A stretch of 64,000 nt of DNA from Reyranella humidisoli (GTDB lineage Bacteria > Pseudomonadota > Alphaproteobacteria > Reyranellales > Reyranellaceae), in the NCBI RefSeq assembly GCF_019039055.1, contig NZ_JAHOPB010000001.1:806001-870000 (forward strand), written 5' to 3'. The position numbers and the translations under genes were made by a program. Shown one piece after another: positions 16,499-27,995 of the stretch (its first letter is position 1; every line of letters starts with the position of its first letter). The notes below the pieces were generated by a model. The model ran no database searches. It saw only the letters and a program-made list of their open reading frames with translations, and had not been told where the DNA came from.

Positions 16499-16511
16499 GG
16501 CTTACCGACCG

Positions 16512-16539
16512 CGTGCCAGCCGTCTAGTTGGCTGGCACG
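16512..16539. terminator. Perfect 10-bp stem-loop between convergent genes
   Basis: CGTGCCAGCC and GGCTGGCACG form a perfect 10-bp stem with an 8-nt loop. There is no clear U-tract. It ends the cco side and overlaps the last codons and stop of the convergent lipoprotein gene, whose TAG lies in the loop. Confidence 0.5.
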
Positions 16540-17618
16540 GTGACGACCGGCGGCGCCGACCGCACGCCGACATCGGATATCGAGAAGAGAAGCATCACGC
16601 TCCCGAAGATCAGCTTCGACCGGATGTCGGTCTCGGCGATCCAGAACCAGCGCCCCTTGTAGGGTACGGCCACGTAGGAATCGGACGGCGCCGACGGCCC
16701 GCTCAGGACGTTGATGAGCGGCGGAGTCGTGCCCTCCGAGGCGTGCGCCATGGTGGCCCCGGGCATGGCGCGCCCGCTCGAGACGTCGGCTTCGGGCACC
16801 TGTGTCAGGATTCCGAGTTCGAGCATCACCTGGAGCATCGAACGCGTCACCAGCGCGATTTCGTCCGACTTGCCGGAATAGCCGCCGTACCGCACCGAGT
16901 AATCGCCGGCAGGGCGTGAAAGGTGGAGAATACTGCGGACTTCGGCAATCTGCGAAGCCACATTGGCCGGGCTGCCCCCAGCCGGAGGGAAGCCGATCAG
17001 CGTGTTCTCGCCATCTTTCTTGCGGTTGATCCGGATCTGCAGTGCGTTGGCCTGCTGCAGCTCGTACAGGAGCTGGGTGAGCCGCAGGAATCGTGGATCC
17101 GCTGGCCGGGACATCCCCGGCCGCCGCGATTCGTTGGCGATACCGTTGATGGACTCCACGGTGAGCGGCATCACGACGGTCGCATTGTATCCCGCCTGCA
17201 GCAGGAACAGCACCGCGCTTGGCGGCATCGGCTCCATCAGCTTGCGGACGAAGTCCGTCCCGGTGAGTGGGGCATAGATTATGGTCGGCCGGTCGATGAA
17301 AGTCGCACCGACGGCCGCCGTACCGCCAACAGCGGGCGGCACCACGCCCGTCGCGGCGCTGGTGTAGTTGGCAATTCCGAACCCTGCTCCGCCAGTTGTC
17401 TGGAACTGGTAGCCCGCGATGACCTGGCCGATCTCCATGAACATCGGATAGTCGCCGTAACGCAACCGCACGATGTTGAGCAGCGTCTGCTACTTCCAGG
17501 AATCCCCGATCGCGGCGGCATAGTCGGCGCGGTCGCGAGGCACGGTTCCCGGCCCGATGCTGCTGCAGCCGCACAGTGCCGCCGCGGCCAGCACGACCAG
17601 CGAGCCGCACGGGCGCAT
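16524..17618 (-). pseudogene. Conserved lipoprotein gene interrupted by an in-frame amber codon
   Basis: ATG at 17616-17618 starts a lipoprotein signal (LAAAALCGCSS, lipobox cysteine near residue 16-18). The frame continues VPRDRADYAAAIGDSWK and then meets TAG at 17490-17492 (codon 43). It resumes with QTLLNIVRLRYGDYPMF and runs another 321 codons to 16526 with no further break. The sequence on both sides reads as one continuous family of alphaproteobacterial outer-membrane-type lipoproteins of unknown function, in which SW-x-QxLLNIVxLRY is contiguous. So the gene is broken by a single point mutation, read through by a suppressor, or the base is an error. A downstream GTG (17471) could give a signal-less product. 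It follows the DUF1622 gene by 2 bp. Confidence 0.75.
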
Positions 17619-17620
17619 GG

Positions 17621-17968
17621 TCACTGCCTGTCTTTTTGCCAGGGCCAACGCCCGCTGACCTCGAGCTCCAGCGCGAACCCAAGCAGGGTGCGGATGGCGA
17701 TGATCACCGCCAGGACACCAAGATTATAAAGGGTGGGCTCTATCGCCACGGTTCCGATGATGTCGGCGATGACGAGAAATTCCAGGCCAAGCAGAATCGC
17801 CCGCCCGAGGTCGGTGCGCAGACCGTGATAGGCGTCCTCCGGGCTGGCCCCCCGGCGAATGCGGATCAGGCAGGCGCCGATGGCCAGGAACGCACCCGCC
17901 AACAGGACGAGGACCCCAATCAGTTCCACGATATGGCCGGCGGTCGAAGCCAGCAGGTCGATTGTCAT
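17621..17968 (-). CDS. DUF1622 inner-membrane protein
   Basis: The 115-aa protein has three hydrophobic segments: IVELIGVLVLLAGAFLAIGA, AILLGLEFLVIADIIGTV and LYNLGVLAVIIAIRTLLGFA. The LxGLEFLxIADII pattern is characteristic of DUF1622. ATG 17968 starts 8 bp after the DUF2252-like stop and the gene ends just before the lipoprotein ATG, so all three form one operon. Its function is unknown. Confidence 0.8.
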   Translation of the reverse strand: MTIDLLASTAGHIVELIGVLVLLAGAFLAIGACLIRIRRGASPEDAYHGLRTDLGRAILLGLEFLVIADIIGTVAIEPTLYNLGVLAVIIAIRTLLGFALELEVSGRWPWQKDRQ

Positions 17969-17975
17969 GGGACGC

Positions 17976-18566
17976 TCAGCTCGTCTCGACGACGGCTTTG
18001 ACCCTGCCCTGGCGCACTGCCCTGACGAAGGCGCGGTGGTCGCGCTGCGCCTGGTCCGCATACGCCACGGCAAAGTCACACATCGCGTCGTCGAAAACCT
18101 CGCTCGAGCCCAGGTATCCCGCAATCTTGGCAGGATCGCCGGAGCGGGCATGGGCGCGCGCCAATGCCCAGCCGCAGACACGGCTATAGGCGCGCAGATC
18201 GCTGGCATCGAAATCCTCGATGATGGCACTGGTCTTCATGTCGCGAAGCTGGCGCACGTAGAAATGCCGCTTGCTCAAGCCGGTACCCCATCCCAGAAAC
18301 AGGTCGCTCGCCGACTGCATCAGCCTCTGCCCGGCCACCACCCGCTGGCCGTGGTTGGCGTGGGCACTCGCACCTGCATAGGGCTCTAGAACCGAGGCCT
18401 TGGCCTCCTTGATCTGCAGGAAGAGAGGATCCTCCTTGCGGGGCTTCCCTTCACGCTGTGAAGCGCGCGGAACGGCCTCCCGCAGCGCCTTTCCCTCGGC
18501 GCGACGCTCGTCAGCCGCCTTGTACGGCACGGATGCGATCATGTGACCATGTGCGGTTGCGTCCAT
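17976..18566 (-). CDS. DUF2252 family protein lacking its central region
   Basis: The product is 196 aa, while DUF2252 proteins are usually over 400 aa. The first 40 residues match the family's opening (RRAEGKALREAVPRAS), and the frame then joins directly to the family's C-terminal part: FLQIKEAKASVL, RVVAGQRLMQSASDLFLGW, HFYVRQLRDMK and LARAHARSGDPAKIAGYLG. The kinase-like central section that normally lies between (roughly 200 residues) is absent, without a frameshift. The ATG at 18566 has a strong GGGGGAG site and an FNR box 49 bp upstream, so the short form still looks expressed. It may be a remnant or a reduced functional variant. Confidence 0.7.
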   Translation of the reverse strand: MDATAHGHMIASVPYKAADERRAEGKALREAVPRASQREGKPRKEDPLFLQIKEAKASVLEPYAGASAHANHGQRVVAGQRLMQSASDLFLGWGTGLSKRHFYVRQLRDMKTSAIIEDFDASDLRAYSRVCGWALARAHARSGDPAKIAGYLGSSEVFDDAMCDFAVAYADQAQRDHRAFVRAVRQGRVKAVVETS

Positions 18567-18614
18567 GCGTCTCCCCCAGCTTACCCGACGATACGCGCGC
18601 CGCCGGATCAAGCC

Positions 18615-18628
18615 TTGAGATGGATCAA
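18615..18628. promoter_or_regulatory. FNR/FixK box of the DUF2252-DUF1622 operon
   Basis: TTGAGATGGATCAA has both half-sites. A class II arrangement on the minus strand would start transcription near 18580, 14 nt ahead of ATG 18566 and just at the ribosome site. Confidence 0.68.
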
Positions 18629-18668
18629 TCGCCGATGGAGGCCACGCACTCCGTTCACCTTGATGCCG

Positions 18669-18800
18669 TCAGCGAACCATGGCGCGGATCGAACGGCGTC
18701 TGTCCAGATCTCGCAGCGCTTCGTCGAAGACGTCCGCCACGAGATCCTGGCCGTACCGCAGGGTATCGAGGCCGAGCGGGATACCGACGCAGCTTGACCT
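18669..18800 (-). other. Possible gene remnant
   Basis: In this 252-bp intergenic stretch one minus-strand frame reads LDTLRYGQDLVADVFDEALR then LDRRRSIRAMVR before TGA at 18669-18671. It looks coding in composition but has an upstream TAG near 18800 and no credible start codon. It may be the tail of a lost gene or a start on a rare codon. No family is assigned. Confidence 0.25.
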
Positions 18801-18818
18801 GCGCCAATGTTCGCCGAC

Positions 18819-20111
18819 CTAACCGTCCGACCTGCCGGAGGATCCTCCAAGGCCTTGCAGATCGCCCTTGTTCGCGCGCCGACGATCTTCAGGTTCCGGG
18901 AAGGAGCGCTCGACGGTTTGCTCCAGCAGGGCGAGCTCGCTCTGCAGCGAGGGTGCGCGCGATGGCGGCAACCGTTCGACAAGATGCTCGAGCATGGCTC
19001 GCAGACGGCGAACGACCTGGGTGCTGGAAGCGCCGTACTGCCGCACTTCGGTGACGGCCAGGCTGACGATGTTGTCCCAGTCGGGCGTCGGGAAAACGAG
19101 TCTCAGCGTGTTGCCGGCATCGTGAACCCTCGCATTGTCGAGATTCTTCTGTCCGGCGTATCGCAGCAGCCGGTGGATCTGATCGATGGCCAGCACGGCC
19201 GTCGTCGGATCGTTGACCGCGGGTGAAAGGGCGCGAGACGCCACGTCGACCATGATGCGGAAGGCGAACATCGGATCCTGACGCATCGTGCGCTCCGGGC
19301 CGAAGGCGACCAGCGCATTGAGTGCTTCCTCGCTCAAACGCGCATCGGCGGGATAGAGGCGGGCCAACGGGTCTCCGGTCGAAACGAAATCTCCTATCTG
19401 CGGGATGATCTCGATCGTGCAGCCGGCCCTCGTCGCAAGTGCCATGAGCTCGCGCCCGCCAAAGGCCAGAAAGGTCCCCGACGGACCGATCCGTTCGACG
19501 ATGCGGCCGGGGCGCCCCACAAGTTCCTGGGCCATCCCCTGGCTTTCCGCCCGCGCAGGATCGAAAGCCCCCTGGTAGACGCTGTCCATGGCATCCTTGC
19601 CGTCCGCGAACACCTTCTGCAGCACCGTGACCGGCCGCAGGCCGAGCCCGACTTCCTCGACGAACCAGAAGAAGACGGCGATGGCCAGGATGTTCCCGGC
19701 GATGGCGAGAAGGATCAGCACGCCGTGACGCACCTGTTCGGTCGTGTTGGCCAGGGCAACCATGGTGATGCCAAAGGCGAAGACGAAGATGCTGGCCGCA
19801 ACCTTCATCTCCCAGCGGCTGAACGTCATCCTGATGATGCGCGGCGTAATCTGGCCGCTGGCGAGCTGGACGGCCAGCAGCAGCGCCGAAACCGCGTAGA
19901 CCATGAATGTCAGCATCGAGGAGGCGAAGGCGGCCATGGAGACGCGCATGCCCTCGACATCGCCATCGTCGAAGCGTGGCCAGCTCGGATCGGGAACGAG
20001 CCCCAGGACGAGCTTTCCTGCCAGCCATGCGACCAGCAGCGCGAGGGAGGGGAACAGCCAGAACGAAGATCTCGCGAACTCGCCCAGGCGGTAGCGGAAA
20101 AGCCAGCTCAT
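18819..20111 (-). CDS. DUF2254 membrane protein
   Basis: The 430-aa protein has four N-terminal transmembrane helices (to about residue 150) and a long soluble C-terminal domain. Typical DUF2254 signatures are visible: AFASSMLTFMVYAVSALLLA, ASGQITPRI, and RTMRQDPMFAFRIMVDVA followed by ALSPAVNDPTTA. Its ATG overlaps the stop of the BASS-family gene (ATGA), so the two are coupled. The function is unknown; channel-like roles have been suggested only by topology. Expression probably follows the FNR box at 21018. Confidence 0.85.
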   Translation of the reverse strand: MSWLFRYRLGEFARSSFWLFPSLALLVAWLAGKLVLGLVPDPSWPRFDDGDVEGMRVSMAAFASSMLTFMVYAVSALLLAVQLASGQITPRIIRMTFSRWEMKVAASIFVFAFGITMVALANTTEQVRHGVLILLAIAGNILAIAVFFWFVEEVGLGLRPVTVLQKVFADGKDAMDSVYQGAFDPARAESQGMAQELVGRPGRIVERIGPSGTFLAFGGRELMALATRAGCTIEIIPQIGDFVSTGDPLARLYPADARLSEEALNALVAFGPERTMRQDPMFAFRIMVDVASRALSPAVNDPTTAVLAIDQIHRLLRYAGQKNLDNARVHDAGNTLRLVFPTPDWDNIVSLAVTEVRQYGASSTQVVRRLRAMLEHLVERLPPSRAPSLQSELALLEQTVERSFPEPEDRRRANKGDLQGLGGSSGRSDG

Positions 20112-20983
20112 GATGGTGCCTTCGACGAGACTTCGGCCGGGACCTTGCCCAGCCAGCCTGAAGCGAGCCAGGTCGCTGCGAGGGTCAGCGGGACACCGAG
20201 CGCAACCATGACCGTGGTTCGGGGATCGGGATCGGCCACGAGCAGCGGCGCGAGGGCGGCGCCGAGATTGCGCGTGCAGGCGCCGAGGCAGACGACGCTG
20301 CGCCGTGCAGGCGGCAGGCGGATCGCAAGCAGATACCCGCCGGCAATGAGACCGATCGCATAGAGAAGCTGCCCGGCAATGGCAAAGCTACCGATCGCGC
20401 CGAAGAAGCCCTGGCCGTGGCGAATGGCGATCGCCAGCAGCAGGACGACCGTCGCCGCACCGGCAATCGGCCGAACGACGGCGAGCAGTTTCTGTGCGAT
20501 CGGCCGGTGAACGGCACGCAGGGCCATGCCGGCGCCCATCGGAAGAATGAGCAGAACCAGCAGGGGACGCGCGACCGTCCAGGCTTCGACGGAGAGCCCC
20601 GGCACGACGACGGGGACGCCGAGCGGCATCATCAGGACGGTACCGAGCGCCGCGACGAGCATGAATGCCGCGGTATAGGAAAGGTCGCCCCCAGCGCGCC
20701 GGACCATCATCGGCAGGAAAGGCGCCGCCGGCGCCAGGGAAACCAGCAGCAGGCCGACCGCATAGGGCTCGGCCATCGGCACGACACGCACGATCGCAAA
20801 CGCAAGCGCGGGCGCGAACAGCCAGTCGACGACCATGACGATCAGGAGGAAGCGCAGATCCCGCAGCGGTGCGAGCGCTGCCCGGCCATCCGTCTCCAGG
20901 CCGATCGCCAGGAGGTTGCCGGCCATAAACAGGATCACTGCCGGCCGAATGGCGATCTCCGCGAGGTGCAGAATGCCTTCCAT
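20108..20983 (-). CDS. BASS (bile acid:sodium symporter-like) family transporter
   Basis: The 291-aa protein has nine to ten transmembrane helices with the BASS layout: RPAVILFMAGNLLAIGLE at the start, LVSLAPAAPFLP in the middle and the late CLGACTRNLGAALAP motif, which corresponds to the cross-over helix region. Substrates of bacterial members are mostly unknown organic anions or arsenite. The start at ATG 20981-20983 gives the best N-terminus but has no clear ribosome site. The FNR box upstream is centred exactly 41.5 bp from the A of this ATG. Confidence 0.7.
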   Translation of the reverse strand: MEGILHLAEIAIRPAVILFMAGNLLAIGLETDGRAALAPLRDLRFLLIVMVVDWLFAPALAFAIVRVVPMAEPYAVGLLLVSLAPAAPFLPMMVRRAGGDLSYTAAFMLVAALGTVLMMPLGVPVVVPGLSVEAWTVARPLLVLLILPMGAGMALRAVHRPIAQKLLAVVRPIAGAATVVLLLAIAIRHGQGFFGAIGSFAIAGQLLYAIGLIAGGYLLAIRLPPARRSVVCLGACTRNLGAALAPLLVADPDPRTTVMVALGVPLTLAATWLASGWLGKVPAEVSSKAPS

Positions 20984-21017
20984 TCCGCACCGATAACCCA
21001 CCGGTCCGACGCGGGAC

Positions 21018-21031
21018 TTGATCGTTGTCAA
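21018..21031. promoter_or_regulatory. FNR/FixK box in a divergent promoter
   Basis: TTGATCGTTGTCAA has both half-sites. It lies between the BASS-DUF2254 operon (minus) and the outer-membrane/VIT-like operon (plus). It is centred at 21024.5, which is 41.5 bp from each start codon to within 2 bp. Confidence 0.7.
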
Positions 21032-21063
21032 AGAGTAGGCATTGCAACGGGCTATCCTGCGGC

Positions 21064-22017
21064 ATGCGACGGATCGTTCCGATTCTGGTGGCCGTCCTCC
21101 ATCCCGGCTGGGCCTTGGCCGATGAAGGAGGCGCCAGCGTCTGGCTGCCCGGCCAGTTCGCGAGCTTCGCCGCCGTTCCGGGAGACCCAGGCTTTTCCGT
21201 CGAGTCGATCATCTACACGCGGAACGCGAGCGCACTGGCAGGAACGAGCTTCTCGCGCGGTGGCGGATTGCTCGCCGGCCTTTCCGTGAACGAGCAGTAT
21301 GTCTACCTCACCCCGACCTATACGTTCGCGACGCCTGTCCTGAACGGCCAGATGTCACTCGGTGTGACCTTCTCGGCCGGGCAATCGGGCGCCTCCGTAT
21401 GGGGAGTCCTGGCAGGCCCCGGCGGTCGCTCGCTGTCCACTTCCTCGAGCGACAGCGCATCGGGCATCAGCGATCTCTACCCCATGGGTTCGCTGAAATG
21501 GCAGCTCGGCGACCACAATGCCATGGTCTACGTCATGGGCAGCGTACCGACCGGATCGTACGATCCAAACCGGCTTGCCGGTGTCGGCCTCGGTCACTGG
21601 GCGATCGACTGGGGTCTCGGCTACACCTTTCTCGCCCCGACCGGCTTCGAGTTCTCGGTGACCGCAGGACTCACCTACAATTTCATCAATCCTCAGACGG
21701 GCTATCAAAGCGGCATGGACGCTCACGTCGACCTGGGGGTCTCCTATTCGTTCAGCGAGACGCTCTATGCCGGTGCCGTCGCCTACATCTACAACCAGCT
21801 TTCCCCCGATACTGGCGGATCGGCCCGTCTCGGCGACTTCCGATCGAGTGTCGCGGGCGCAGGACCGCAGATCGGGTGGTCTTTCACCGGCGCCGGCATG
21901 GCCTTCGACGTGAACCTCCGCGGATACAAGGAATTCGCGGCGCACAATCGGCCGGAGGGATGGAATGCCTACCTCACGCTGTCCATCGGCGCGCTGCCGC
22001 GCAAGAAGGCGGATTGA
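21064..22017 (+). CDS. Outer-membrane beta-barrel protein, phenol-degradation MetA-like
   Basis: The 317-aa protein has a short signal peptide (RRIVPILVAVLHPGWALADE, cleavage after ALA). Alternating hydrophobic beta-strands follow, with YVYLTPTYTFATPVL, VYVMGSVPTGSYDPN, WAIDWGLGYTFL and GFEFSVTAGLTYNF. This is the pattern of the PF13557 family found in aromatic-compound gene clusters. Here no aromatic genes are near, so only an outer-membrane channel role is inferred. The VIT-like gene starts 5 bp after its stop. Confidence 0.7.
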   Translation: MRRIVPILVAVLHPGWALADEGGASVWLPGQFASFAAVPGDPGFSVESIIYTRNASALAGTSFSRGGGLLAGLSVNEQYVYLTPTYTFATPVLNGQMSLGVTFSAGQSGASVWGVLAGPGGRSLSTSSSDSASGISDLYPMGSLKWQLGDHNAMVYVMGSVPTGSYDPNRLAGVGLGHWAIDWGLGYTFLAPTGFEFSVTAGLTYNFINPQTGYQSGMDAHVDLGVSYSFSETLYAGAVAYIYNQLSPDTGGSARLGDFRSSVAGAGPQIGWSFTGAGMAFDVNLRGYKEFAAHNRPEGWNAYLTLSIGALPRKKAD

Positions 22018-22022
22018 TCGCG

Positions 22023-22682
22023 ATGCCGAACCTGATCGATCGCTATCTCGACCCCAGCGAAAGCCTGCTCGAAATCCTGTTCGGTCTGGTGATGGCCTTG
22101 ACCATGACCGCCGGCGCACGCCTGCTGTCGGAACCGGCCACGCTCGACCTGTCTGAACTGATGCTCGCCCTGATCGGCTGCAACGTAGCCTGGGGAGTCA
22201 TCGACGCGGTATTCTACCTGATGGGGTCGCTGTTCAACCGCAATCGCCGCGTGAGACTGGTTCGACGACTGCAGGCTGCGACCAGCGACGATCAGGCCAT
22301 CGCGCTCGTTCGCGACGAATTCGACCTTCGAGGTGAGCCGCCTACCCGGCCGGAGGACAGCGCCGCGTTCCATCGGGCCTTGCTCGAATTGCTGCGTCAC
22401 GCCGGCTCCGAGCGTGCTCACTTCACACGGCACGAGTTCATCGCCGCCGGGATCGTCCTCCTGCTGGTGTCGGCAACGGCCATCCCTGGGCTGATCCCGC
22501 TGCTGCTGGTCGGCGATTCCGACACGGCATTGAGACTCGCCAACGCGGTTCAAGTCGTCCTGCTCTTTGCAATCGGCTATCGCTGGGCCCGGTACTCGGG
22601 CGCCCCCGGTTGGCGTGGGGCCCTTATCGTCGGTACCCTCGGCATCGGCCTGGTGCTGGTGGCGGTTGCGCTGGGCGGTTGA
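22023..22682 (+). CDS. VIT1/CCC1-like membrane protein
   Basis: The 219-aa protein has five membrane segments: LLEILFGLVMALTMTAGA at the N-terminus, LALIGCNVAWGVIDAVFY, then a cytosolic helical hairpin rich in charge, and three C-terminal helices including FAIGYRWARYSG. These motifs recall proteins annotated as VIT1/CCC1 transporters (vacuolar-type iron/manganese transporters), though the acidic metal-binding residues of plant VIT1 cannot be confirmed. It is cotranscribed with the outer-membrane protein and is the last gene before the tRNA-derived repeat. Confidence 0.6.
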   Translation: MPNLIDRYLDPSESLLEILFGLVMALTMTAGARLLSEPATLDLSELMLALIGCNVAWGVIDAVFYLMGSLFNRNRRVRLVRRLQAATSDDQAIALVRDEFDLRGEPPTRPEDSAAFHRALLELLRHAGSERAHFTRHEFIAAGIVLLLVSATAIPGLIPLLLVGDSDTALRLANAVQVVLLFAIGYRWARYSGAPGWRGALIVGTLGIGLVLVAVALGG

Positions 22683-22744
22683 TCACGCGGTCGCCGCAGA
22701 GGAGCGGCGGGTACCGCAAGATCGGTACCTGGTTCGCAATGGCT

Positions 22745-22782
22745 GAGGAGAAATGGCGTGCCCGGAAGGAGTCGAACCTCCA
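22745..22782 (-). repeat. 38-bp copy of the tRNA-Arg 3' end (attR-like)
   Basis: These 38 bp match 27910-27947 with one mismatch (T at 22759 against C at 27924). On the minus strand 29 bp are the T-arm, acceptor end and CCA of tRNA-Arg and 9 bp are the sequence just downstream. No 5' half of the tRNA is present here, so it is a fragment, as left by integration into a tRNA 3' end. Confidence 0.8.
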
Positions 22783-22789
22783 AACATTC

Positions 22790-25519
22790 CTAAGTGCTTC
22801 TCCTTGCCTGCAAGGCAGCGAACACGCACTCGGCGAACATTCGGTCGACGTCCGGGGCTTCGAACATTCGCCAATGGTCTCCGGCAACAGGGACCACGTC
22901 GACACGACTGGTACGGTTCGACCACCCCAAATCTTGGGGAACCTCGGGGGGCCGGGGCTCATCCGAGCGAAAAAGGACGACCGGAACGTCGCACCGTACC
23001 GGCCTCAGCCGATTCAGCCACTCGGTGTGGAGGCGGTGAAACAGGCGCAGCAGGATGACGGTCGGCAGGGTCATCCTCCACGACTCCGGCAGGGGCGGGT
23101 CGAGCGCCATCAGCGCCCGTAGCGCCGCACGGATTCCTCGCCTGGTGAAGAGATCGTCCGAGAGGATGGCAGCTGCCAGTGTGACCCAGTAGCCGCGCCG
23201 GAACCCTCGCCGCAGGCGGGCCACCTGGTCCCGCGGACGACGGCGCGGCACCGGCTCCGCCGGATAGATGACGCCGCTCACGTCCGTGTCGAACACGCCC
23301 AACAACACGACTTCGCGGCCTTCGGCGATGAGCTGGGTCATCGTCGCGTACGCAACGTCACCCCCGGCGGAATAGCCGGCGAGAGCGAGAGGACCGTGAG
23401 GCTTTTCGCGGATGATCTGCTCGACGGCGAGCCTGACGATGGTTTCGAACCCGGTGTCGGCCCGAGCCAGCACACCGGCGCCGGGATAGCGCAGCATCCT
23501 CAGAGTAAGGCGCTCGGCAAGGGAGCGGCAGAAGCCGGCGAGCAAGCCATCGGCGCCGCCGGCTGGCGGGAAGAAGAAAATCACGGGTTCGTCCGCCGCA
23601 AGTTCACGCGGCTTCTCCTCGAGGAAGCTCTCGACAGCGCGTGCGATTCCTTCTTCATCCAGCCGGGCGTGGAACCTTTCCAGCGGCAGCGCGCGGCCGG
23701 CCAGCCGTTCGAGATGGAAGATCATCTGCGGGAAAGCGAGCGAGTCCCCGCCGGAATCTTCGAAGGACTGTCCGGAGCGCGGCGCCCGGCCGACCGCTGC
23801 ACGCCAAGCCCGGTTCACCATTGCCCTCGCCCGCGGGCCGGCGGTCGGCGAGGGTGTGGGTGCAGGGACCTCGACGTCCACGGCGGCGCAGGCGAGCAGC
23901 GCTGCTTCGTCGACCTTGCGCCCTGGCAACAATGGCAGGCCGTCCAGGACGTGGACGGCCCGCGGGCGCATGTACGGCGGCAGGGTTCGGGCGAGACTGT
24001 TGCGGATTTCCGCCGGGAATCCCGCCGCCACGGAACCGCGCGGCACCACGAAGGCGAACAGGTGAGGCTCGTCGTCGACCATCCGCGCGACCACCGCGGC
24101 ATCCGCGACGGACGGGTCCCGGCGTAGTGCCGCTTCTATCTCGGCGAGTTCGACACGGTTGCCACGGATCTTGATCTGCCGGTCACGCCGGCCGAGCATG
24201 ACGAAAAGCCCGTCGGACCGGCGCCGAACGAGGTCGCCGGTGCGGTAGGTCTTGAGATGCGGCCGGGAGGAATCGAACTCGAACGGCCCCGGCGCCACGT
24301 CGCCGTCGCACCACAGGCCGAGCGACATGAAGGCGCTGCGCACGACGAGTTCTCCCTCCCCGCCATCGGCCACCGGCTGGCCGTGTTCGTCGATCACACC
24401 GAAGTCGATGTCGGGCAGGGGATAGCCGACCGGCACGCGGGCCTCGTCGTGCGGCGGCTCGGTCACGAACCACTGAAGCAGGGCCGGTGCTTCGGTCGCG
24501 CCGTAGACCGACAGTATCGCGCAGTTCGACGGCAGTACTTTCCGCACCAGCTCGTGGTCGACGCGGAGCAGGACGTCGCCCGAAGTCTGGATGCAGCGCA
24601 GACTGGTCAGCGCCTCGCGCGCACCTTCGAGTTGCATCACGCTGCGCCAGACGGCAGGCGTGGAAAACATCATCGTGATGCGCCGCTCGGCGACCGCCCG
24701 CAACACCTGCCCCAGACCGATGCGCTGCAGGTCGAGTTTCACGAGGGCCGCGCCGCACAGCATGACTTCGAAGATCTGCTGCAGACCACCGATCGTTCCG
24801 GGTGACGCCAGCGACAGAACCTTGTCAGCGGCGTGCAGGTGCACGGCATTCACCAACTCTGCCGCGCGATGCAGGACCGCGCGCTGGCTGAGAATGATTC
24901 CCTTGGGCTGGCCAGTGCTACCGGACGTGTAGACGACGAAGCTCGCGGAGTCGGCCGACGCCGGCACGGCCGGCATGGCAGGCGGAACTTCCGCAGCAGC
25001 GAAGGCATCCTCGATGGCGAACGGACGTACACCTGCCGGCAGCAGATAGCCCGAAGCGATATCGGCGCGGCTCATGATGACGGCCGAAAGGCCGGCATCC
25101 CTTACCACCGCCGCAACCCGCTCCTGAGGATAGTTCCGATCGATCAGGATGCAGGAACGCGATGCGCCGAGGCACGCCAGTACGGCCGCCGGGTACGATG
25201 CCTGATTGGGCAGCAATACGCCCACCGCCCCGCCGGAAGGAATGGCCGTATCGATGAGTCCCGCGAGCCAGCACGCGGCCTTCCACATCTCAGCGAAAGT
25301 GAATCCGCCATCGCCATCCTCGCAGGCAACGGCATCGGGTCGTCGCTCGGCGATCTCGGCGAACAATTCGATCGCCGGACGCTCGACCCAGCTCTCTTCG
25401 AAGCGGCAAAAGGCAACGTCTCGCGGCCCGTTCAGATCGAGATCGGGCACCGGGTGCCGCTGCCATCGGGGACCTGTTGCACTCACATCAGCCGCAGCAG
25501 GCGAAGAGGAGGCTGACAT
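22790..25519 (-). CDS. Stand-alone NRPS-like enzyme, adenylation-thiolation-thioesterase
   Basis: The product is 909 aa. The adenylation domain (about 45-560) shows A3 YTSGSTGQPKG near residue 196, A5 VYGATEAP, A7 YRTGDLV, A8 DRQIKIRGNRVELAEIE and A10 Lys in GRKVDEAAL. A carrier domain has the phosphopantetheine serine in GGDSLAF (about 591). A thioesterase domain has GYSAGG (about 714) and a late His in AGDHWRMF. There is no condensation domain. At A4 the segment TIGGLQQIFEVMLCGA replaces the usual FDxSxxE, so the Asp that binds a substrate amino group is missing. This suggests a keto, hydroxy or aryl acid substrate. The start at ATG 25519 has GGAAG upstream. Confidence 0.85.
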   Translation of the reverse strand: MSASSSPAAADVSATGPRWQRHPVPDLDLNGPRDVAFCRFEESWVERPAIELFAEIAERRPDAVACEDGDGGFTFAEMWKAACWLAGLIDTAIPSGGAVGVLLPNQASYPAAVLACLGASRSCILIDRNYPQERVAAVVRDAGLSAVIMSRADIASGYLLPAGVRPFAIEDAFAAAEVPPAMPAVPASADSASFVVYTSGSTGQPKGIILSQRAVLHRAAELVNAVHLHAADKVLSLASPGTIGGLQQIFEVMLCGAALVKLDLQRIGLGQVLRAVAERRITMMFSTPAVWRSVMQLEGAREALTSLRCIQTSGDVLLRVDHELVRKVLPSNCAILSVYGATEAPALLQWFVTEPPHDEARVPVGYPLPDIDFGVIDEHGQPVADGGEGELVVRSAFMSLGLWCDGDVAPGPFEFDSSRPHLKTYRTGDLVRRRSDGLFVMLGRRDRQIKIRGNRVELAEIEAALRRDPSVADAAVVARMVDDEPHLFAFVVPRGSVAAGFPAEIRNSLARTLPPYMRPRAVHVLDGLPLLPGRKVDEAALLACAAVDVEVPAPTPSPTAGPRARAMVNRAWRAAVGRAPRSGQSFEDSGGDSLAFPQMIFHLERLAGRALPLERFHARLDEEGIARAVESFLEEKPRELAADEPVIFFFPPAGGADGLLAGFCRSLAERLTLRMLRYPGAGVLARADTGFETIVRLAVEQIIREKPHGPLALAGYSAGGDVAYATMTQLIAEGREVVLLGVFDTDVSGVIYPAEPVPRRRPRDQVARLRRGFRRGYWVTLAAAILSDDLFTRRGIRAALRALMALDPPLPESWRMTLPTVILLRLFHRLHTEWLNRLRPVRCDVPVVLFRSDEPRPPEVPQDLGWSNRTSRVDVVPVAGDHWRMFEAPDVDRMFAECVFAALQARRST

Positions 25520-25565
25520 AACCACTTTCTTCCGTTTCGCGGTTGGAAGCCACCCGAGCACATGC

Positions 25566-25601
25566 TGCCAGCATAATTGTTCTGCAGAACGCTGGCATCA
25601 A
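25566..25601 (-). promoter_or_regulatory. Promoter and dyad operator of the NRPS-like gene
   Basis: On the minus strand TTGATG (25596-25601) and AATTAT (25573-25578) form a -35/-10 pair with 17-bp spacing. The spacer contains the perfect palindrome GTTCTGCAGAAC (25579-25590), nested within a second inverted repeat TGCCAGC/GCTGGCA (25566-25572 and 25591-25597). The arrangement suits a repressor site controlling one or both divergent genes. Confidence 0.5.
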
Positions 25602-25696
25602 CGTCGTTATGAGTGAGCAGAACGTGCCGCCAGCGCTGGAATACGCCGAGCGGGCCTGTATCTTCGGCGCCTCTCCCTGGGCTATTGAAGCACCCG

Positions 25697-27079
25697 ATGA
25701 CAGGCTCCGACCTCGGCCGACTCTTCACGCCACGCTCGATCGCGGTTCTTGGTGCTTCGGCCAGCCCCGACAAGCTGGGAGGCCAGGTGTTCGGGCGTCT
25801 CGCCTCTTCGTTCAAGGGTGACCTGATCGCCGTCAATCCGTCGGAGACCGCCATCGCCGGCCGGCCAGCCGTGCCGTCGCTACGCGACCTGCCATCGCCG
25901 GTCGATCTCGTCGTCGCGCTGCTTCCGGGTGAAGCGCTGGTCGAGGCGATCGAGCACTGCCCGCAAGGACAGGCGGCGTTTCTGCTGGCCATTCCCAGCG
26001 GCTTCGGCGAGGTCGCGCACGAAGGTCCCGCGCTTCAACGGCGCCTGGCCGAGGCCGCGCACCGAGCCGGCATGCGTGTCGTGGGCCCCAACTGCGTCGG
26101 CGTGCTGAACATGGACGCCGGCCTGAATGCCTCGATCATTCCGCTGATGCCACCGGGTGGGCGTCCAGGCCTCGGCATCGCCACCCAGAGCGGCGGCTTC
26201 GGCATGGCGACGGCCATGTATGCCTGCGACAACGGGCTGGCGATCTCCTCTTTCTGCGACGTCGGCAACACGGTCGACGTCTCATTGGCCGATTGCGTGG
26301 ACCACCTCGCAGCCGATCCCGCGACCGGCGTGATCGGCCTGTATGTCGAATCGGTGCGCGATACCGCCGGGTTCCAGCGTGCAGTCGAGCAGGCGGCCCG
26401 CCGCAAGCCCGTCATCCTCTGTCCACTCGCGCGCTCTCCGGCAGGCCAGGCAGCTTCGCTCGCTCATGTGGGCATCGCGGCCGATGGGGTCTTGCTGGTG
26501 CAAGCGGCACGCGCCGCCATTACGGTCGATTCGGGTCTCGATCTGCTGCACGTCGCCAAGATGCTGCTGTGGCAGGCTCCACGCACGCTGCACGGCCGTC
26601 GGCTTGCCGTCGTCACCGGGACGGGCGGGATCGGCACCGAGATCGCCGACCTCGCGAGCGAGCGAGGCCTCGCGGTGCATCGCTTCTCCGATCGCCTGAC
26701 CAAGGCGATCGCCAACCATTTGCCGCCCTATGCCGCATCGGGCAATCCGGTCGACCTGACGCCGGTATGGCGCGACTATCCGGAACTCTATCCGCTGGTC
26801 ATCGAGGAGATTGCCCGTTCGGGCGAGGCCGATCTCATCGCCGTCTCCATCACCGACGTTCCAACCACCCGGCCTGACCTCGCAAGAAGCCTCGCTCGGA
26901 CGATTCCCCGGCTCGGCGTTCCCACGGCGGTCTACTGGGCGTCGCGCGATTCCGACGTCGCAAACATGGCGCCGCTGCAGGCGGCGCGGGTGCCATGCTA
27001 TCGGGCCACGCGAGAACTCGCGCTGGCGCTCGCCGCGCTGGCGCGCTCCGACACAAGCTGCACCGAGGGCCCCGAGTGA
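25697..27079 (+). CDS. NDP-forming acyl-CoA synthetase, alpha-type (CoA-binding) protein
   Basis: The 460-aa protein has a CoA-binding Rossmann domain (RSIAVLGASASPDKLGGQV, to about 130). Two succinyl-CoA-ligase-like domains follow, with VVGPNCVGVLN, ATQSGGFG and the AASLAHVG segment that carries the phospho-histidine region. The ATP-grasp (beta) domain needed for a complete ADP-forming acyl-CoA synthetase is absent and no separate beta gene is adjacent. It may partner with a beta subunit elsewhere or have another acyl-transfer role. ATG 25697 is preferred because the conserved domain begins soon after. It is divergent from the NRPS-like gene. Confidence 0.75.
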   Translation: MTGSDLGRLFTPRSIAVLGASASPDKLGGQVFGRLASSFKGDLIAVNPSETAIAGRPAVPSLRDLPSPVDLVVALLPGEALVEAIEHCPQGQAAFLLAIPSGFGEVAHEGPALQRRLAEAAHRAGMRVVGPNCVGVLNMDAGLNASIIPLMPPGGRPGLGIATQSGGFGMATAMYACDNGLAISSFCDVGNTVDVSLADCVDHLAADPATGVIGLYVESVRDTAGFQRAVEQAARRKPVILCPLARSPAGQAASLAHVGIAADGVLLVQAARAAITVDSGLDLLHVAKMLLWQAPRTLHGRRLAVVTGTGGIGTEIADLASERGLAVHRFSDRLTKAIANHLPPYAASGNPVDLTPVWRDYPELYPLVIEEIARSGEADLIAVSITDVPTTRPDLARSLARTIPRLGVPTAVYWASRDSDVANMAPLQAARVPCYRATRELALALAALARSDTSCTEGPE

Positions 27080-27122
27080 CATGTCCGTCAGCATCGCCGA
27101 ATGACAGATCATCGACCTCGCT

Positions 27123-27809
27123 TCAGGCAGTCGCCCGACGCCGAAACAGGGGGGCCGTGTTGCCCGTGCGGTGCAGGCAGAGCGCCTTCCCGCTCGCGCG
27201 CGGCTGGAAGTAGACGACGCGCCCGGTTTCCCGCCATCCGAGTGCGCGCAATCCCTTGAGGGCATCAGGCCGATCGAACTGCCCTATCGTGAAGGCATGG
27301 CGCGCGCCTTGGGCGCGCGCATCTCTCAGCATTGTCCCCAGCACCAGCGCATGTATGCCCTGGCCGCGAAAGGCCGCCGGGGTAAAGGCATCGGTCGTAT
27401 AGACCTCGCCTGAGCCCAGCCGAAGCGGTCGGCCGGGCAGCGCATCGCCCCACCGGTAGCAGGTCCAGTTCACGTGGGCGAGATGGTCGCCGACAAACGC
27501 CAGATAGCAGCGCTCGCCCCGCAAGAGGCGATCACGATAAAGCTGTTCTGCAGCCGTGTCTCCCGGATGGGAACCCAGCCACAGCCAGGGATCATCGGCG
27601 TAGAGGCGGCAGATCGCGCCGAGGTCCTCCTCCTTCGCGAGGCGGATCATGGCGTCGAGCCGATTGGGTACGACGGTCACTGGCTCGACGAGGGATCGTT
27701 CGAAGAACAGGACGCAGCACAGATCGCCGAGGGGTGCGATGGCTCTGCGAGCGAACTGCCAAACGCGCGTAAGGGTGCCGTGTTGTTGGGCCGCTCCCGG
27801 CCTGGTCAC
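27123..27809 (-). CDS. GNAT family N-acetyltransferase
   Basis: About 228 aa. The GNAT domain begins at MIRLAKEEDLGAICRLY and has the acetyl-CoA loop AFRGQGIHALVLGTML. A 55-residue N-terminal extension (FFERSLVEPVTV) is usual for a subgroup of bacterial GNATs. No ATG gives the full domain; GTG 27809 with AGGGAC upstream is chosen, while TTG 27860 is also open. It is convergent with the acyl-CoA synthetase-like gene and lies inside the tRNA-bounded segment. The substrate is unknown. Confidence 0.65.
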   Translation of the reverse strand: MTRPGAAQQHGTLTRVWQFARRAIAPLGDLCCVLFFERSLVEPVTVVPNRLDAMIRLAKEEDLGAICRLYADDPWLWLGSHPGDTAAEQLYRDRLLRGERCYLAFVGDHLAHVNWTCYRWGDALPGRPLRLGSGEVYTTDAFTPAAFRGQGIHALVLGTMLRDARAQGARHAFTIGQFDRPDALKGLRALGWRETGRVVYFQPRASGKALCLHRTGNTAPLFRRRATA

Positions 27810-27918
27810 CGTTCGGGTCCCTGTGAGGGGACTTGGCTGCACGCCGACAACGGAGGCCAAGGGGAAGCCAAAGTGGCCCTTGGAGCCTCATCAACATACG
27901 CATGTGAACGAGGAGAAA

Positions 27919-27995
27919 TGGCGCGCCCGGAAGGAGTCGAACCTCCAGCCTTCTGATTCGTAGTCAGATGCTCTATCCAGTTGAGCTACGGGCGC
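27919..27995 (-). tRNA. tRNA-Arg (anticodon ACG)
   Basis: The 77-nt gene has a complete cloverleaf: acceptor GCGCCCG paired with CGGGCGC, D-arm AGCTCAACTGGATAGAGC, anticodon stem CTGAC with loop TACGAAT giving ACG, and T-loop GGTTCGACTCC. CCA is encoded at 27919-27921. Its 3' end is duplicated at 22745-22782. Confidence 0.95.

Follow-up and report, generated by a model that had tools for sequence, protein, structure and literature searches.

Results

Three adjacent genes of Reyranella humidisoli were analysed in a 64-kb window of the 5.5-Mb genome (G000; the window is the whole stretch C1:806001-870000). They encode a stand-alone synthetase composed of an adenylation (A) domain, a carrier (T) domain, and a thioesterase (TE); an alpha subunit of a nucleoside diphosphate (NDP)-forming acyl-coenzyme A (CoA) ligase; and an acyltransferase of the GNAT fold. 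All three were found where an initial annotation of the DNA had placed them.

The synthetase is encoded on the minus strand by an open reading frame (ORF) of 923 amino acids (22790-25561) with a likely ATG start at 25519, identified by its Pfam domains and its relatives. Matches to AMP-binding, AMP-binding_C, and Thioesterase were obtained in Pfam, where no match to a condensation domain was found, which agrees with the A-T-TE architecture lacking a condensation domain that had been described; the carrier domain was recognised from its GGDSL motif. The A-domain (23930-25363, minus strand) comprises PF00501 (residues 67-417) and PF13193 (residues 474-544). The TE domain (22853-23599, minus strand), assigned by PF00975 and by TE relatives in the PDB, carries the invariant triad S731/D758/H896. 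Likewise, the phosphopantetheine site of the carrier domain, Ser607 (codon 23741-23743, minus strand), is invariant, and in the alignment this serine and the Ser/Asp/His triad were kept in all full-length members of the family. The closest homologues of the synthetase belong to Reyranella, including R. aquatilis, and its closest solved relatives are ordinary nonribosomal peptide synthetase (NRPS) modules. As the structure model was of medium quality (predicted template modelling score 0.43), it was left out of all statements on the binding pocket.

The ligase gene lies on the plus strand (25697-27079), with a conserved ATG at 25697 in an ORF that is open from 25613. Its product contains the Pfam domains CoA_binding_2, Succ_CoA_lig, and Ligase_CoA_2 and no ATP-grasp domain, as the initial annotation had stated. 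Among solved structures, it comes closest to 2csu and 4xyl, both separate alpha subunits, whose histidine aligns with that of the ligase. His257 and Glu218 were invariant across five orthologues, and Glu218 is presumably the catalytic glutamate of the family. The histidine corresponds to the phospho-His on a swinging loop described for the NDP-forming acyl-CoA ligase superfamily (PMC11494057). Apart from a SucC-sized protein, no free beta subunit (ATP-grasp_5) was found in the genome.

The third gene (27123-27860, minus strand; conserved part 27123-27764) encodes a protein without a match in Pfam or NCBIfam, and its sequence matches were weak by themselves. The AlphaFold model reached a mean predicted local distance difference test score of 86.8, and a Foldseek search with it matched GNAT structures (best E 9e-10). 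Since the family databases failed to recognise the protein, its identity as the GNAT announced by the initial annotation rests on this predicted fold; orthologues delimit the conserved part.

Insertion at a tRNA-Arg gene

Copies of a 38-bp direct repeat flank the trio on both sides. The proximal copy (27910-27947) lies in the 3' end of a tRNA-Arg(ACG) gene (27919-27995, minus strand; ARAGORN), the target of the insertion, and consists of this 3' end plus 9 bp; the distal copy (22745-22782) represents a displaced tRNA-Arg 3' end. Both copies are identical at 37 of 38 bp, and no further copy exists in the genome at ≤3 mismatches. The 5.1-kb stretch between them (22783-27909) is filled by the three genes alone. 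Just outside the distal copy, the bases ATGGCT are those found beside the intact tRNA in genome G017, which fits a displaced original tRNA end. G015, with 91% identity at the tRNA, lacks the trio here and carries it at another place. Being the sole cargo of the insertion, the three genes gain independent support as a unit, and the sequence context suggests that they form an apparently mobile cassette. No match to a tyrosine integrase was found within the 64-kb window. As the trio is not next to tRNA-Arg in G006 or G015, the tRNA site is no part of its function.

The entire 11.4-kb difference to G015 (16500-27912) was also considered as a single insertion and rejected: no third repeat copy exists near 16500, and the flank of the copy at 22745 matches the tRNA flank of G017, so only 22783-27909 was assigned to the insertion. 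The neighbouring region 16500-22744 is lacking from the corresponding site of G015, a close relative; one part of this region, a DUF2254 gene, lies near the tRNA in G008. The latter genome carries another insertion of 2.4 kb at the same tRNA-Arg (L077 11544-13971), with a repeat, genes for DUF4411 and Peptidase_M78 (IrrE-like) proteins, and no visible integrase, which marks the site as a hot spot.

Conservation of the trio

The comparison covered twelve synthetase loci from Reyranella and its close relatives (the window, L015-L023, L025, and L027); many of the underlying genomes are incomplete assemblies, in which absences weigh less than presences. The GNAT gene adjoins the synthetase gene in seven loci (the window, L015, L016, L018, L021, L022, and L023) and the ligase gene adjoins it in five (the same set without L016 and L018). 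The latter five share one gene order, with GNAT forward, ligase reversed, and synthetase forward. L016 and L018 contain GNAT and synthetase genes on the same strand, separated by about 15 bp in L018, and no ligase gene. Between ligase and synthetase, L021 and L023 have three transporter genes of the branched-chain amino acid type, for one periplasmic binding protein and two permeases. Among the five loci without a GNAT gene, a contig end lies close upstream in L017, L019, and L027.

Close orthologues of the GNAT and the ligase occurred only in G000, G006, and G015, and always within the trio (24 genomes of the genus searched per gene). Purifying selection acts on each of the three genes, with ratios of nonsynonymous to synonymous substitution of 0.10-0.47 (Nei-Gojobori), which are rough values as many synonymous distances are near saturation. 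In a class-wide sample, the synthetase family comprised Reyranella, one clear outgroup, and otherwise remote relatives only; the single clear homologue outside the genus, in G041, is 36-37% identical.

The initial annotation had made its grouping of the three genes depend on their co-occurrence in other genomes, and this co-occurrence was found. Its further proposal that the three act together is supported by the conserved adjacency and by the three-gene insertion at the tRNA. The association of the trio is more than chance.

Adenylation pocket

Pocket positions were assigned in GrsA numbering, which was set by hand from conserved motifs. Ile257 of the motif TIGGLQQIF (923-amino-acid numbering; codon 24791-24793, minus strand) aligns with the aspartate of both LgrA A-domains, equivalent to D235 of GrsA, and isoleucine occupies this position in every Reyranella-group synthetase compared as well as in the G041 outgroup. 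The loss of the aspartate that anchors an amino group, a central claim of the initial annotation, was therefore confirmed by the LgrA alignment and the family alignment. The pocket of the window synthetase reads I235 G236 Q239 F278 Q299 S301 V322 A330 L331 K517. Two pocket types were distinguished. Type 1 (I G/A Q F Q S V A L K) comprises the window synthetase, L015-L021, and the first A-domains (A1) of two fused synthetases in L022 and L023; type 2 (I A Q F H S S A I/L K) comprises a paralogue in the same genome, L027, and the second A-domains (A2) of L022 and L023. Among relatives of about 50% protein identity, the pocket is almost unchanged, and the proline of the GPTE motif is replaced by alanine in all members of both types.

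Both features have counterparts in A-domains for keto acids. StsA combines isoleucine at position 235 with a lost GPTE proline (PMC11253843), the exchange P483A/M in LgrA raised keto-acid activity to some extent (PMC11253843), and valine at position 235 marks the keto-acid quinone synthetases (PMC10316625). Judged by its pocket residues, the synthetase likely takes an acid without an amino group, and an alpha-keto acid is our best guess at its substrate.

Paralogue, fused synthetases, and lasso-peptide-like genes

The synthetase paralogue with a type 2 pocket lies at C1:3.71 Mb of the same genome (L025). It is followed downstream by an HprK-like fragment, an AsnB-like cyclase, a PqqD protein, a precursor candidate, and an NTP_transf_5 protein (L025 10711-15378; C1 ~3.7127-3.7174 Mb). 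The best NCBIfam match of the cyclase is the lasso cyclase, under its cut-off. The precursor candidate, which ends in GSRGNNDGGRLSGRKSTRA, is one of four retrieved with a looser sequence pattern; a tighter pattern gave none. A similar set of lasso-like genes stands behind the synthetase at four other loci (L017, L021, L022, and L023) and, incompletely, at L019, where the contig ends inside the cyclase. These six synthetase-linked clusters are devoid of the B2 peptidase, showing at most an N-terminal trace of it, whereas most of the unlinked Reyranella lasso-like clusters compared (L111-L114 and L116) keep a B2-type peptidase (Transglut_core3). As the linked cyclases are close relatives, the loss of B2 may have been a single event. 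One of the unlinked clusters, L114 (6810-12131), is a second lasso-like cluster of the R. humidisoli genome (C1 ~2.054-2.059 Mb), which retains the B2 peptidase and an HprK-like kinase and seems to hold two similar precursor genes.

The fused synthetases of L022 (4273-8763) and L023 (6408-10745) have the architecture A1-A2-T-TE with one A-domain of each pocket type. This fused form, linked to a lasso-like cluster, is the one present in R. aquatilis. In R. humidisoli both types are present in separate proteins, so the window synthetase and its paralogue may cooperate. Such pairing is not obligatory, since a type 1 enzyme alone was found in G029 and a type 2 enzyme alone in G018.

Discussion

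We tentatively read the trio as a small, NRPS-like cassette for specialised metabolism in Reyranella, which moves as a unit and activates a non-amino acid, probably an alpha-keto acid, with release or coupling by the TE and with the GNAT as acyltransferase; we hold this at a little under even chances. In this proposal, the A-domain would adenylate an acid that lacks an alpha-amino group, with an alpha-keto acid as the likeliest candidate, and load it onto the carrier domain. The TE would release the acid, and we favour its joining to a second acid or another nucleophile, as in A-T-TE enzymes of the RalA and atromentin type, over plain hydrolysis. That two acids might be joined is suggested by the fused A-A-T-TE proteins of two relatives, which contain both pocket types. 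The GNAT may acylate an amine of the same pathway from an acyl-CoA or from the carrier, and the alpha subunit might catalyse an acyl-CoA or acyl-phosphate step or serve as a CoA-binding partner. The sequence of activation, thioester formation, and N-acylation put forward in the initial annotation is a plausible proposal.

Several observations weigh against this proposal. Absence of the GPTE proline is also general among acyl-CoA ligases, which makes a fatty or aryl acid conceivable as the substrate. McyG, with valine at the position of Asp235, activates L-Phe (PMC11253843); loss of the aspartate is therefore no proof of a non-amino substrate. The TE could simply hydrolyse its thioester. The ligase is missing beside the synthetase in L016, L018, and L025. 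Finally, the ligase may not make CoA esters alone, because the only clear ATP-grasp_5 proteins of the genome are two fused ones and the one of SucC size.

Three other explanations were weighed, each of them weaker than the cassette proposed above. The synthetase family and the GNAT could modify a lasso peptide, and the trio would then be the tailoring half split off from a lasso cluster. The AsnB-like, PqqD, precursor, and NTP_transf_5 genes behind the L025 paralogue and behind the synthetases of L017, L021, L022, L023, and partly L019 speak for this, as do the GNAT and ligase genes within the same stretch in L021-L023 and the precedent of albusnodin, a lasso peptide acetylated by a GNAT (PMC8498205). 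However, many lasso-like clusters of Reyranella have no synthetase, the trio stands apart from lasso genes in the window and in G006 (L015), and the linked clusters, which have lost B2 and in some cases the HprK-like kinase, may be decaying; we consider lasso-peptide tailoring unlikely. A hybrid of the two ideas, in which the A-T-TE synthetase, the GNAT, and the orphan ligase subunit would put a non-amino acid on a ribosomal lasso peptide, the fused A-A-T-TE form would present a single carrier with two acids, and the trio would move alone as a tRNA island, has a slimmer chance.

Alternatively, the trio might activate a carboxylic acid taken up from outside so that it can be degraded, and the ligase would make its CoA ester. 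The binding protein and the two permeases between ligase and synthetase in L021 and L023 would suit such a role, and so would the retained catalytic His and Glu of the ligase. Yet catabolism needs neither a carrier domain nor a TE, the most constant neighbour of the synthetase is the GNAT and not the ligase, and the conserved neighbourhood of the trio includes no dehydrogenase or other degradation gene, all of which makes this role improbable, slightly more so than lasso tailoring and less so than the hybrid. Least probable of all appears a split control system of the Pat type, in which the alpha subunit would sense acyl-CoA and the GNAT would acylate the synthetase at its A10 lysine, in analogy to the action of Pat on AMP-forming acetyl-CoA synthetase. 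A GNAT and a ligase module do lie next to an adenylating enzyme whose A10 lysine is conserved, but the catalytic His kept by the ligase is missing from the synthetase domain of Pat, the GNAT was not recognised as a Pat-family protein, and in L016 and L018 GNAT and synthetase occur with no ligase alongside.

Comparison with known systems

Each part of the trio belongs to a known superfamily. To our knowledge, the conserved and apparently mobile set of an A-T-TE synthetase, a GNAT, and an orphan alpha subunit is new to the literature, a limited search of which yielded no description of it. With tRNA-targeted genomic islands, the insertion shares the direct repeat of the tRNA 3' end that brackets the cargo and the intact tRNA; it differs in its cargo of just three genes and in the lack of a tyrosine integrase match in the window.

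The ligase resembles the alpha subunits of ADP-forming acyl-CoA synthetases (2csu, 4xyl) in its subdomains 1-2-5, its catalytic His/Glu, and its similar length. Unlike them, it has no adjacent gene for a beta (ATP-grasp) subunit, nor was a free one found in the genome. An orphan alpha subunit that keeps its phospho-His with no free ATP-grasp partner found poses a testable question on the role of such subunits on their own. The Pat/PatZ-type lysine acetyltransferases likewise pair a GNAT with an NDP-forming acyl-CoA synthetase module. By definition, however, Pat is a fused protein in which the catalytic His is missing, whereas here the GNAT and the ligase are separate proteins and the His is kept.

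As to the synthetase itself, StsA of cereulide-type depsipeptide synthesis shares the isoleucine at the Asp235 position and the lost GPTE proline, but it is part of a multimodular synthetase with a ketoreductase, in contrast to the A-T-TE protein standing alone here. The keto-acid A-T-TE synthetases, namely the fungal enzymes for atromentin and polyporic acid and the bacterial RalA and EchA, were likened to it by description only. They share the stand-alone A-T-TE architecture without a C-domain, an aliphatic residue in place of Asp235 (valine in the published code, isoleucine here), and a TE expected to release the product; the conserved GNAT and ligase neighbours are found only here when compared with these enzymes as described. 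Should the keto-acid reading prove right, RalA-like chemistry would have one more bacterial source in Reyranella, and the A-A-T-TE fusions could reveal how two acids are handled on a single carrier.
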